A DNA stretch of 12,280 bases from Candidatus Nitrosopumilus sp. Its GTDB lineage: Archaea > Thermoproteota > Nitrososphaeria > Nitrososphaerales > Nitrosopumilaceae. The stretch is from NCBI GenBank assembly GCA_022758935.1, contig JAEMQG010000060.1, positions 1 to 12,280 on the forward strand, given 5' to 3'. A program made the position numbers and the translations under genes. This document shows, one piece after another, positions 4,269-8,039 of the stretch; position 1 is the stretch's first letter; every line of letters starts with the position of its first letter. The notes beneath the pieces are model-generated. The model was not told where the DNA came from. It saw only the letters and a program-made list of their open reading frames with translations, and did not search any database.

Positions 4269-5561
4269 TTAAGTTTTTAATCTTTTCTCAATTTCTGTTC
4301 TAATAAGTTTAACAATTTTTTCCTTTTTTGTCCATCCGGAATGAATCACCTGATGTGAATCTATAATTAAAATTTCATTATTCTCCGGATTTTTTTTGTA
4401 TCTAACTGATCCAACATCATTTGCTACAATCATATCTGCAGCCGATTCATTCATTTTTATCTTTGCTACTTTGATCAACTCCTTTTTTGAAATATCTGTT
4501 TCAGCCTTGAAACCCACCAAAAAAACATTTTTTTGAATTTTTTTGATCTGATCAATAATTTTTGGTGTTTTTTTGAGGCTAATTTCTATTTGATTTTTGG
4601 TACTTTTCAATTTATTTTTACTAGAATTTACTGGAGCATAATCTGATACAGCTGCTGCCATTATTACTATATCAAATTCTTTCCTCATCTCTTTTTTTAC
4701 AGCTTCAAACATTTCCTTACCTGTGAAAATTTTAATTATCTTTGCACCCTTTGGTGGTTTTACAATTCCTGGACCATAAATCAAAGTGACTTTAGCTCCT
4801 GAAGAAATTAATTCAGAGGCTAACAATACACCTGTTTTCCCTGAACTTTGATTTGTAATTACACGAATCGGATCAATATATTCAACTGTAGGACCTGCAG
4901 TCATTAACACTTTTTTATTTTTAAGAATCGATGAGAATCCAAATTTTCTTAATACATATTCTAAAACATCCTCAGGTTCAGATGCCTTTGCTTTTCCTTC
5001 AACTCTTTGTGGTGTCAAAAATTCAATCTTCTTTTTTAAAAATTCTACATTTTTTTTAATAGCTGGATTATCATACATAGATGCATGCATAGCAGGACAC
5101 ATCAATATGGGAATCTTTGAACCAAATCCAACTGTAAGGATTGTAGATATCGGTGTATCATCAATACCATTAGCTAATTTTCCAAGGGTGTTTGCAGTAG
5201 CTGGATAAACTATGATAAGATCTGCCCGATTATAATCTGCCAATCTAATATGTTCCAATTCACCTGTCAGTTTTGTAATCACCTCATTTCCAGTTGCCCA
5301 TTTAAAATAATCCGGCTGAACTAATTTTGTAGCTGCATCACTTGTAACACATGTAACATTAGCACCATGTCTCATTAGTAATCTTGCCAATTCGATTGCT
5401 TTGTAGGCTGCGACACTTCCTGCAACACAAAGAACTATTTTTTTCCCAGATAATTCAACGCCATGAGAACCTACAATATCTAATGACGGATGATCTCTCT
5501 TTTTACTGACTTTCTTTTTAACTATCAATTTACTCTTGCAACTTTTTGAATTCTTCATCAT
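4269..5561 (-). CDS. coaBC: Bifunctional phosphopantothenoylcysteine decarboxylase / phosphopantothenate-cysteine ligase
   Basis: CoaBC joins 4'-phosphopantothenate to cysteine (CoaB) and decarboxylates the product with FMN (CoaC) to 4'-phosphopantetheine. The CoaC domain spans about 36-205: GSVAAYKAIEL at 48-58, catalytic-type H104 (EHIRLA) and PAMHASMY at 156-163, the counterpart of the PxMNxxMW substrate motif with N to H and W to Y. CoaB spans about 213-430: AGPTVEYIDPIRVITNQSSG at 222-241 with N237, AAAVSDYAP at 302-310, lysines 315/317 and VGFKAET at 349-355. The 430-residue length includes a Lys/Ser-rich N-terminal extension (1-22) before HPSLDIVG. The ATG at 5559-5561 overlaps the PanB reading frame by 32 nt and lacks a Shine-Dalgarno sequence; a TTG at 5526-5528, just past the PanB stop, is an alternative start. 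Function is confident, start less so. Confidence 0.95.
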   Translation of the reverse strand: MMKNSKSCKSKLIVKKKVSKKRDHPSLDIVGSHGVELSGKKIVLCVAGSVAAYKAIELARLLMRHGANVTCVTSDAATKLVQPDYFKWATGNEVITKLTGELEHIRLADYNRADLIIVYPATANTLGKLANGIDDTPISTILTVGFGSKIPILMCPAMHASMYDNPAIKKNVEFLKKKIEFLTPQRVEGKAKASEPEDVLEYVLRKFGFSSILKNKKVLMTAGPTVEYIDPIRVITNQSSGKTGVLLASELISSGAKVTLIYGPGIVKPPKGAKIIKIFTGKEMFEAVKKEMRKEFDIVIMAAAVSDYAPVNSSKNKLKSTKNQIEISLKKTPKIIDQIKKIQKNVFLVGFKAETDISKKELIKVAKIKMNESAADMIVANDVGSVRYKKNPENNEILIIDSHQVIHSGWTKKEKIVKLIRTEIEKRLKT

Positions 5562-6003
5562 CCATTGAAAACCAATGTTCTTGGGCAGGAAATATGCCTA
5601 ATTCAACATCCTTTTTGTAGCTTTCAAGTGCTTTAACAATATCTTCAGACAAATTCAAATATCTTTTTGCAAATTTTGGCTTTATTTTTTCAAACATACC
5701 TAACAAATCTTGTAACACTAATACTTGACCGTTACAACCGACACCAGAACCTATCCCAATAGTGGGTACACTAACAGTATCAGAAATTATTTGCGCTACT
5801 TGATGACAAATCATCTCTAATGTAATACTGAACACCCCAGATTCTTCAAGTCTTTTTGCATCCGCAATTAATTTTATTGCAGAATTTTTTGTTTTACCTT
5901 GTACTTTGTATCCATCATATAACATCGTAGTTTGTGGTTGTAAACCAATATGACCCATAACTGGAATTCCAACATCAACAATCGCTTTGATTGTTTCTGA
6001 CAT
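5530..6003 (-). CDS. panB: PanB C-terminal half (ketopantoate hydroxymethyltransferase, split by in-frame TAA)
   Basis: This 157-codon ORF lies in the same frame as the preceding N-terminal half and begins with the ATG directly after its TAA. It carries helix 4 (SETIKAIVD), strand 5 (IPVMGHIGLQPQ), the GYKVQGK loop, strand 6 (SITLEM), strand 7 (VPTIGIGSG) and the C-terminal helices that pack the decamer. H18 and E63 correspond to E. coli PanB H136 and the catalytic base E181; if the stop codon counts as residue 118 the numbers coincide exactly. A minus-strand AAGGAGG lies 7 nt before this ATG, so independent translation is well supported. Its end overlaps coaBC by 32 nt. Either the two halves assemble, or the stop is a recent nonsense change, read through, or a sequencing error. 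Confidence 0.85.
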   Translation of the reverse strand: MSETIKAIVDVGIPVMGHIGLQPQTTMLYDGYKVQGKTKNSAIKLIADAKRLEESGVFSITLEMICHQVAQIISDTVSVPTIGIGSGVGCNGQVLVLQDLLGMFEKIKPKFAKRYLNLSEDIVKALESYKKDVELGIFPAQEHWFSMDDEEFKKLQE

Positions 6004-6357
6004 TTATGTGCCTCCTTCAAGTTTTACTGCTTCAGCTCCTGCTTTGATTAATCTGCCTGAATTTTTTATTGCATCTTCAATATTTGCTTGATATGACATA
6101 AATGGTAAATCTGCCACTAACAAAGCATTTTTTCTTGCTCTGCTGACTGATTCTGTAAACATACACATTTGATCCATTGTTACAGGGATGGTATTTTCAT
6201 AACCAAGCATTACCATGCCTGCACTATCTCCAACAAGAAGTACATCTATTCCAGATTTATCACATAATGATGCAAGTGTATAGTCATAACTTGTAATTAC
6301 TGAAATTTTTTTTCCATCTTTTTTCATTTTAATGATATCTTGAACCGATTTATGCAA
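6004..6357 (-). CDS. panB: PanB N-terminal half (ketopantoate hydroxymethyltransferase, split by in-frame TAA)
   Basis: PanB transfers a hydroxymethyl group from methylene-tetrahydrofolate (or a pterin analogue) to 2-ketoisovalerate, giving ketopantoate. This 117-residue ORF covers the first half of the TIM barrel: strand 1 ISVITSYD (18-25), strand 2 LLVGDSAGMVMLG (40-52) with metal ligand D44, strand 3 LLVADLPFMSY (79-89) with D83, and strand 4 AVKLEGG (110-116) with K112 and E114. It then ends at TAA 6004-6006 instead of continuing into helix 4. Intact PanB proteins have about 260-280 residues; the two halves plus one codon total 275. The start is TTG at 6355-6357, supported by AAGGAGGT six nt upstream, and overlaps the upstream ligase gene by 8 nt. 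Without the C-terminal half it cannot be active. Confidence 0.85.
   Translation of the reverse strand: MHKSVQDIIKMKKDGKKISVITSYDYTLASLCDKSGIDVLLVGDSAGMVMLGYENTIPVTMDQMCMFTESVSRARKNALLVADLPFMSYQANIEDAIKNSGRLIKAGAEAVKLEGGT
6011..6017 (-). promoter_or_regulatory. Shine-Dalgarno sequence before the PanB C-terminal half
   Basis: Minus-strand AAGGAGG is formed by the codons of the conserved Leu-Glu-Gly-Gly motif and lies 7 nt before the ATG at 6001-6003, with the TAA in between. The layout favours reinitiation or independent initiation at the second half of PanB. Confidence 0.6.
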
Positions 6358-7120
6358 TACATGACCTCCTTGTTAGATTATCTCTAATTTCAATTATATT
6401 ATCTGAGATATTTTTTTTATTATCAAAGTCATTAACAATTTTTTCAAGTATTCTCTTATTCTTTTTTGATAAATTTCTACATTCCACAATTAACAAACCC
6501 ATAGCTCGGGTAACATTATCTATTATTGTTATATTAGCTGTTTGTGAAGTTCTCGAGAGTGGATTTAGATCAAAAGTTATAACTTTTTTTCCAATCTTTC
6601 TTAATGCTATAGTTCTATCACCATCTTCTAAAGGAACAATCACCACATCTGCTGCAAAAATCCCATTTTTATCAACTATTCTTCTTGCTGAATCTAATCC
6701 TGGCAGAATAGTTGATGAACTAGAATTTATGCCTAAAATTTCCTTTGCACCATTCTTTTTGAGAGTATTAATAATATTCCGTCTTCGCTTCGCATTGGCA
6801 TAAAATAGATTTACTTCAATTTTTGCCCTTGATGCATTAGCTAGCCTTACCACCTCTTTTGGACATAGTGCAGCAATATTCCCATTAACAGAGATTACAG
6901 GTAAATCTGCCAAAAGAATTTGGGCAGCAGATGCTCTTATTGCTAATTTTGCTGTCTTCCTTGTTTTTTCTCCAAGTAAATAATCAAAAGCTTCTCCTCT
7001 ACCATGTGCCAAAAGACCTTCTTTAGCTACTAAACCGCGATCAAATCCACTAACAAGCTTTTCTCGAATAAGAAGAGATTTTGCCCTAGGATGAGATTTT
7101 GGAATTAATGACATTAACAT
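6350..7120 (-). CDS. 4-phosphopantoate-beta-alanine ligase (phosphopantothenate synthetase)
   Basis: This archaea-specific enzyme (COG1701, PPS) joins 4-phosphopantoate and beta-alanine with ATP to make 4'-phosphopantothenate, replacing bacterial PanC plus PanK. The 256-residue protein has the family signature IPKSHPRAKSLLIREKLVSG (6-25) followed by GLVAKEGLLAHGRGEAFDYLLGE (29-51). Further family-like stretches are ILLADLPVISVNGN (68-81), the KIEVNLFY strand and FAADVVIVPLEDGDRT (155-170), then FDLNPLSRTSQTA (183-195), which probably forms part of the nucleotide site. Two starts are possible, ATG at 7118-7120 or at 7112-7114 (MSLIPKSHP), neither with a clear Shine-Dalgarno sequence. The first begins 4 nt after the pantoate kinase stop. 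Its 3' end carries the ribosome binding site of panB. Confidence 0.94.
   Translation of the reverse strand: MLMSLIPKSHPRAKSLLIREKLVSGFDRGLVAKEGLLAHGRGEAFDYLLGEKTRKTAKLAIRASAAQILLADLPVISVNGNIAALCPKEVVRLANASRAKIEVNLFYANAKRRRNIINTLKKNGAKEILGINSSSSTILPGLDSARRIVDKNGIFAADVVIVPLEDGDRTIALRKIGKKVITFDLNPLSRTSQTANITIIDNVTRAMGLLIVECRNLSKKNKRILEKIVNDFDNKKNISDNIIEIRDNLTRRSCIA
6364..6371 (-). promoter_or_regulatory. Shine-Dalgarno sequence setting the TTG start of PanB
   Basis: Minus-strand AAGGAGGT lies inside the last codons of the ligase gene and 6 nt before the TTG at 6355-6357. A nearby ATG at 6360-6362 is out of frame with PanB, so this signal is what supports the rare TTG start. Confidence 0.65.
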
Positions 7121-7124
7121 TCAA

Positions 7125-8039
7125 TTAATTGTGAAGGATTCTTGCTCCCTGATCATCCAATTCTGATTTAATAATTATTCCTTCAGAATATTTTTCTAAA
7201 ATTTGAAGAACTCTACATTCTTTTTCTTTTGGTATCATAGTAAAAACAGTTTCACCAAAAAGTGCTACACCACATTTTATTCCACTCAAAGTAAATTCTT
7301 GAATTAAATCCTGCATTCTTGGAGTCATTACATTGACATATTTTGCAAATTCCAAAGACATATCCTGAAAATGTTCATAGTCCTTTGATTCTAGTAATCT
7401 ATTTACCATTTTTCCACCAAGACCATTAATCTGAGAAAGACGTTCTTTGATGAACTTGTTTGTCGAAATTGGTGAAAAACAAATCATAATTATGGATATA
7501 TCATTTGTGCTGATCTTTTCTATTTGACCTATTCCTGGCGCTCCTGGTTTAACTCTAATTTCAAAACCACCATGATATGATGCCAAGACATCACCCAATC
7601 CAGTCTTACAATTTATCTCAGCATTATGGGCAATTTGACCAATGATTGTTCGATGTAATTTTGTTTGAAGAACTTTATCAAGTGCATATGATAATGATAA
7701 TGCAACAGCACTACTTGAACCTAAACCATATCCGACAGGAATGGTAATTTCATGTTTTATATCAAAAAATATATTTCCAAATTTTCCTAGTTTTAAAAAC
7801 TCATTTAAAACATATTCAGAAACGTCTGTCTTATCTGACTGATAACCTATCGTAGTAATTTTAAAGTTAGAATCTTGATTAATTCTTGATGAAATATTGA
7901 CACGTGTAGTAACCCCCTCTCTAATTGAAAATCCTGCTCCCATGGAGCCTAATTTTTCAGGATTTTTTTGATTATCATTCTCTAAATAAGCTTTAAAAAA
8001 ACCTGTAATGTGTGCAGGACAAAATGCAGTAGCCTCCAT
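7125..8039 (-). CDS. Pantoate kinase (GHMP superfamily)
   Basis: Pantoate kinase (COG1829, PoK) phosphorylates pantoate to 4-phosphopantoate, the first archaea-specific step of CoA synthesis. The 304-residue protein has the GHMP ATP-binding motif PVGYGLGSSSAVALSLSYAL at 101-120, an N-terminal substrate segment FCPAHITGFF (6-15) and SMGAGFSI (32-39). After the ATP loop follow HNAEINCKTGLGDVLASYHG at 138-157 and the C-terminal glycine-rich GIKCGVALFGETVF segment typical of GHMP kinases. Length matches archaeal PoK. It is the first gene of the minus-strand CoA operon and has a TATA-like element 22-31 nt upstream of the ATG, with no Shine-Dalgarno sequence, suggesting a leaderless message. The AbrB-PhoU gene is divergent from it. 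Confidence 0.94.
   Translation of the reverse strand: MEATAFCPAHITGFFKAYLENDNQKNPEKLGSMGAGFSIREGVTTRVNISSRINQDSNFKITTIGYQSDKTDVSEYVLNEFLKLGKFGNIFFDIKHEITIPVGYGLGSSSAVALSLSYALDKVLQTKLHRTIIGQIAHNAEINCKTGLGDVLASYHGGFEIRVKPGAPGIGQIEKISTNDISIIMICFSPISTNKFIKERLSQINGLGGKMVNRLLESKDYEHFQDMSLEFAKYVNVMTPRMQDLIQEFTLSGIKCGVALFGETVFTMIPKEKECRVLQILEKYSEGIIIKSELDDQGARILHN

Follow-up and report, generated by a model that had tools for sequence, protein, structure and literature searches.

The interrupted PanB frame and its neighbours

The window, by which we mean the whole stretch of 12,280 nucleotides that was analysed, is an entire contig (C64) from the draft assembly of an uncultured archaeon, Candidatus Nitrosopumilus sp. 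(G000; 205 contigs totalling 1.61 Mb, with 85% completeness and 4% contamination). On its minus strand lies a single-strand run of CoA-pathway genes: a pantoate kinase-like GHMP kinase (7125..8039) upstream of phosphopantothenate synthetase (PPS, 6350..7120), then PanB and CoaBC (4269..5561). PPS overlaps the start of PanB by 8 nt, and the longest CoaBC open reading frame begins within the PanB 3' end, with an overlap of 32 nt. All three neighbours of PanB have open frames that match family profiles; the kinase-like gene scores under the NCBIfam pantoate kinase cut-offs. A reading made from the sequence only (the sequence-only reading) had called the pathway around PanB complete. The three genes adjoining PanB agree with this, but the word is too strong, as a PanE-type ketopantoate reductase (TIGR00745, PanE/ApbA) was not found in a profile search of G000, a genome that is 85% complete.

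PanB is ketopantoate hydroxymethyltransferase, an enzyme of vitamin B5 (pantothenate) synthesis, and its frame runs from 6357 to 5530 on the minus strand. Translation gives 117 residues, a TAA and then 157 residues from an ATG, all in a single frame. The N-terminal piece (6004..6357, TTG start) holds beta-1 to beta-4 with D44, D83, K112 and E114. The in-frame TAA (6004-6006) stands at residue 118 and is directly followed by the ATG of the C-terminal piece (5530..6003), which holds helix 4 and beta-5 to beta-8 with H136 and E181. These six residues (window numbering), which we take to be catalytic or active-site positions, are invariant in a 45-sequence alignment. Against Pfam PF02548 the N-terminal piece matches profile positions 3-116 with 155.5 bits and the C-terminal piece positions 120-258 with 190.2 bits; read across the stop, the match extends over positions 3-258 of 259 with 358.7 bits, a whole-length PanB. 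Either piece alone scores above the Pfam cut-off and below those of TIGR00222 and NF001452, as expected for half a protein. These matches and the translation confirm that one frame is split only by a TAA with an ATG behind it. The numbering had been proposed by counting the stop as residue 118, and it fits E. coli PanB (1M3U) on either side of the junction: residue 116 aligns with chain residue 116, and residue 3 of the C-terminal piece with chain residue 121. There is no indel relative to other copies, which supports the replacement of a single sense codon.

A whole-genome search of G000 returned one PanB, reported with '1 TAA' inside, and no second, intact copy; in this assembly PanB is not an uninterrupted chain. 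When 201 bases around the junction were searched against 18 genomes, G000 gave the window's own place only and each of 15 other genus genomes gave one strong match, while G017 gave a weak 37-base match and G013 none.

Residue 118 in related genomes

PanB was matched in 102 of the 121 genomes searched (G000 included), and an internal stop was seen in G000 only; likewise, in 101 loci aligned across residue 118 the stop is confined to the window's own copy (L001). Of the 19 genomes that lack a match, 12 belong to the 84 with a completeness of 90% or more and a contamination of no more than 5%. In a wider family search PanB was found in 223 of 250 genomes (127 of the 131 of good quality), and the 150 family matches listed, the window's own not among them, contain no internal stop. 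A fixed fission should be split in more than one genome; here this is so in one of the 102 PanB genomes and in none of the 150 listed family matches. The sequence-only reading had asked whether the split recurs in related thaumarchaea. No relative that was read is split, and at position 118 these have a sense codon instead. A second genome of the same species was not found, and a split PanB did not appear among the titles and abstract openings searched, a scope outside which most subscription journals lie.

Within the genus, the site is reached by 15 copies, all of which have a sense codon at 118 and ATG for Met119; the contig of G017 ends short of the site and G013 has no match. Codon 118 encodes Ser in 12 copies (nine TCT, two TCC, one TCA), Ala in two and Thr in one. 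The place of the start codon, as chosen by script, is occupied by TTG in 14 of the 15 and by ATG in the other. The window is 82-89% identical to genus copies in PanB, 79-86% in PPS, 79-85% in CoaBC and 81-88% in the kinase-like gene, some of these alignments being partial. Only TCA, present in one of the 15 copies, is one base away from a stop. Judging from these codons, TAA118 is likely to have arisen by a single-base change. In the window's PanB 106 of 275 codons are one base from a stop. We estimated post hoc that a nonsense codon would fall directly before Met119 with a chance of ~1%, and at a one-step codon anywhere within 112-118 with a chance of ~4%. We regard the position of the stop as a mild coincidence.

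The AAGGAGG motif before Met119

The ATG of the C-terminal piece (6003-6001) is preceded at 7 nt by AAGGAGG (6011..6017, minus strand), which lies in the Glu-Gly-Gly codons. The description of this element as AAGGAGG 7 nt before the new ATG, encoded by the conserved Leu-Glu-Gly-Gly codons, is exact (AAGGAGG-N7-ATG). The same motif stands at the same spacing before the native TTG start of PanB (6365..6371, minus strand), and an SD-like sequence is found at the native start place in the 15 genus copies. For these reasons initiation at ATG119 seems plausible.

The motif is also found where PanB is intact. The K-(L/I)-E-G-G site was matched in 99 loci, some of which are one organism entered twice; 24 of the 99 have an ATG at the place of Met119, and in five of these (L017, L019, L035, L036 and L037) an intact PanB carries AAGGAGG-N7-ATG. 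The intact genus copy L189 has it as well, and at the Met119 place the full AAGGAGG occurs in two of 16 genus copies, the window included. The motif was thus rejected as a mark of the split. The claim of a 'ready-made' ribosome binding site holds for the motif itself; the site pre-exists in conserved codons, is seen in intact genes and is not unusual for the group. In 800 kb of the genome G014, an internal AAGGAGG suitably spaced before an in-frame ATG was found six times in 222,991 ORF codons, and GGAGG occurs in the 16 nt upstream of eight of 754 crude ORF starts. From such counts strong SDs look rare in the genus and not the rule. In the intact genes L189, L035, L036, L037, L017 and L019, internal initiation of a C-terminal fragment is conceivable.

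The break in the predicted fold

An AlphaFold2 model of the read-through chain, based on the 45-sequence alignment, has a mean pLDDT of 86.9 and a TIM-barrel fold; it is silent on the separate pieces, and residues 217-234 are of low confidence. Compared with the PDB, its 28 best matches are all PanB, 1M3U among them. Solved PanB enzymes (PF02548, TIGR00222; 1M3U, 1O66, 1OY0, 3VAV, 3EZ4) resemble the window's read-through in end-to-end sequence, in active-site positions and in the predicted TIM-barrel fold, and the neighbours of the window's PanB are CoA-pathway genes. PanB is a single chain in the solved structures found (264-281 residues) and in the relatives that were read, whereas the PanB frame of the window is broken at 118.

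In the model beta-4 spans residues 110-114 and helix 4 residues 117-128. The stop was said to fall after strand 4 and before helix 4. It does lie past beta-4, but, at four residues past E114, it already falls within the first turn of that helix. The N-terminal piece would consist of four strands without helix 4, its new C-terminus three residues past E114. The active site of a TIM barrel lies on the side of the beta-alpha loops. Because the new C-terminus would be on that side, the break appears poorly placed for a tolerated split, though such a split would not be impossible.

Selection on the gene and soundness of the assembly

We compared pN/pS pairwise between the window and the 15 genus copies, with other pairs of like divergence as controls (45 pairs for the N part, 58 for the C part). 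Window pairs gave 0.127 in the N part (0.083 in other pairs), 0.169 in the C part (0.144), 0.236 in PPS (0.199), 0.196 in CoaBC (0.172) and 0.193 in the kinase (0.158). In relative terms the N part shows the largest excess of the five, and few changes underlie it; it would speak somewhat against a neutral reading. At sites otherwise invariant in up to 24 other copies, the window has changed two of 75 in the N part and four of 76 in the C part. For L189, a genus copy with a comparably long branch, the numbers are one of 74 and three of 75; the window's own placement in the tree has low support. These values suggest that PanB has been constrained over most of its branch, which would be the same for one chain or two. 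A long-standing pseudogene was rejected, since the gene has no other lesion and its changes at invariant sites are close to those of L189. That nothing else in the gene looks degraded is thus upheld by the relatives' alignments, pN/pS, the invariant sites and the active-site positions.

The state of the assembly was judged from 761 ORFs of 800 kb of G014 compared with 61 of the 205 G000 contigs (435 kb, window included). With a floor of 55% identity this gave 155 best matches (39,658 codons), of which 14 lie in the window; stops in the 15 alignment columns nearest an end were left uncounted. The panB stop is the only internal stop in these codons. A reassignment of the stop codon and a general decay of the genome were both rejected on this ground. 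The only other orthologue in the sample that the stop and frameshift test showed to be broken is a gene that we take to be Elp3-like from its sequence (L125, contig C35, ~2320-2370); its frame shifts at ten consecutive A, either an assembly error or a strain variant. Of four short-match flags in the sample, one belongs to the Elp3-like frameshift and one to a match beginning at a contig edge; genes broken in other ways may have escaped notice. As panB holds the sole stop and the Elp3-like gene a frameshift, the assembly is mostly sound, yet it holds at least one lesion of the kind usual for sequence errors or strain differences.

Discussion

In this study we describe a PanB frame that is interrupted by a single TAA in one draft genome. 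It is probable that TAA118 is private to this assembly, due either to an error in sequencing or in the consensus or to a nonsense mutation that arose recently in this strain, and that the PanB of the species is one chain. For this speak the restriction of the stop to G000, the sense codons in all 15 genus copies, the fragmented draft and the Elp3-like frameshift. A sense codon 118 would have become TAA by an error in the draft or by mutation; a mutation, if real, would be recent, as the gene bears no other trace. The normal PanB of the species would most likely be a single chain as in its relatives, and the adjacent ATG and AAGGAGG would be inherited PanB features (the native Met119 and the Leu-Glu-Gly-Gly codons) and not adaptations to a split. 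We infer that the change was recent or erroneous. However, several points count against a private nonsense codon. Substitution-type lesions are rare here, with none besides panB in 155 orthologues. A TAA directly before the native Met and 7 nt behind a full AAGGAGG is an unlikely spot for a random change, and the native TTG start carries the same motif and spacing. Finally, this is the sole PanB found in G000, and as a biosynthetic enzyme it is presumably needed.

The sequence-only reading had suggested a functional two-subunit PanB and had named strain-level nonsense and sequencing error among the alternatives. The alternatives fit better, given the lack of recurrence, the ribosome binding site in intact genes, the site of the break and the draft source. 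A functional two-chain PanB, in which TAA is fixed, ribosomes reinitiate at the adjacent ATG aided by AAGGAGG and both chains form the barrel in a PanB oligomer, is possible but doubtful. The lack of any gap (0 nt) between the stop and the ATG, the motif 7 nt upstream and the little RNA structure predicted over the SD would suit it. Overlaps already exist in this gene run, at PPS/PanB (8 nt) and where the CoaBC ORF starts within the PanB 3' end. Both pieces keep their active-site positions and have pN/pS well below 1 (0.127 and 0.169). Against this, the value of the N-terminal piece is somewhat raised (0.127 vs 0.083, on small counts), and constraint before the stop arose is inseparable from constraint after it. 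The break is near the active site and leaves the N-terminal piece without helix 4; strong SDs look rare in the genus (8/754 starts in G014), the motif is shared with intact genes, no relative read shows a split and the sequence comes from one draft assembly. The two-subunit view is therefore plausible in itself and unsupported by comparison. We think it unlikely that a nonsense codon before a native Met, together with a pre-existing ribosome binding site, has produced by one-codon fission a co-translated two-chain TIM-barrel enzyme. In such an enzyme the active site would be divided, with K112 and E114 on one chain and H136 and E181 on the other, and the precondition would already stand in intact relatives as AAGGAGG-N7-ATG. 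If true, nature would have turned a single-chain TIM barrel into a two-subunit enzyme in one step, with the active site divided and initiation supplied by pre-existing codons, and the case would offer a direct test of how fission is tolerated. If not, the case is a caution that 'split genes' in draft assemblies can be private nonsense codons with a pre-existing start site.

The junction can be compared with known cases of coupled translation. According to the available text of PMC10666635, reinitiation coupling as tested in Haloferax and E. coli requires overlaps or very short distances, a rule which the TAA-ATG junction would satisfy, and subunits of heteromeric complexes are enriched for short gene overlaps. 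In overlapping pairs the downstream gene usually has an SD in most groups (PMC6728339, in the part available, where the term 'Thaumarchaeota' does not occur). The PanB junction resembles the termination-reinitiation pairs of these two sources, as far as their available text describes them, in its short distance, in the SD within the upstream ORF and in direction, both ORFs lying on the same strand with the ATG directly behind the TAA. It differs in spacing, the commonest being -4 and -1 nt (PMC6728339, available part) and that of the junction 0, in that both ORFs derive from one enzyme, and in that the coupling is putative. Archaeal gene fissions as presented in the available text of PMC11237513, the main text of which does not mention 'PanB', likewise concern proteins that are normally composite but that a minority of genomes encode in two neighbouring ORFs; the PanB pieces of the window are one codon apart and belong to one genome. 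Many archaeal fissions are speculated in the same text to stem from incorrect assembly of metagenomic records.

A real loss of PanB function, with the strain taking up pantothenate or a precursor, is very unlikely. Relatives without a PanB match (19 of 121; 12 of 84 of good quality) and the ketopantoate reductase TIGR00745 not found in G000 would be in line with it, though the latter says little because the genome is 85% complete. Against it, the three neighbouring genes (kinase-like, PPS, CoaBC) all have open frames with matches to their families, PanB has no second lesion, and 127 of 131 good family genomes have the gene.

That a real stop is read through or recoded into a full-length chain is extremely unlikely: the frame stays open with PanB similarity past the TAA, but the absence of any other internal stop in the 155 sampled orthologues argues against general reassignment, RNA structure around the stop is at chance level (z -0.05 and -0.15) and gives no signal for readthrough, and we know of no archaeal recoding system that uses TAA.

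The named records closest to the window's PanB belong to Nitrosopumilaceae, including Nitrosarchaeum, the best with 88% identity over PanB. One record titled Candidatus Anammoxibacter (L042), a bacterium, holds a PanB 67% identical to this archaeal one, owing to contamination or transfer.
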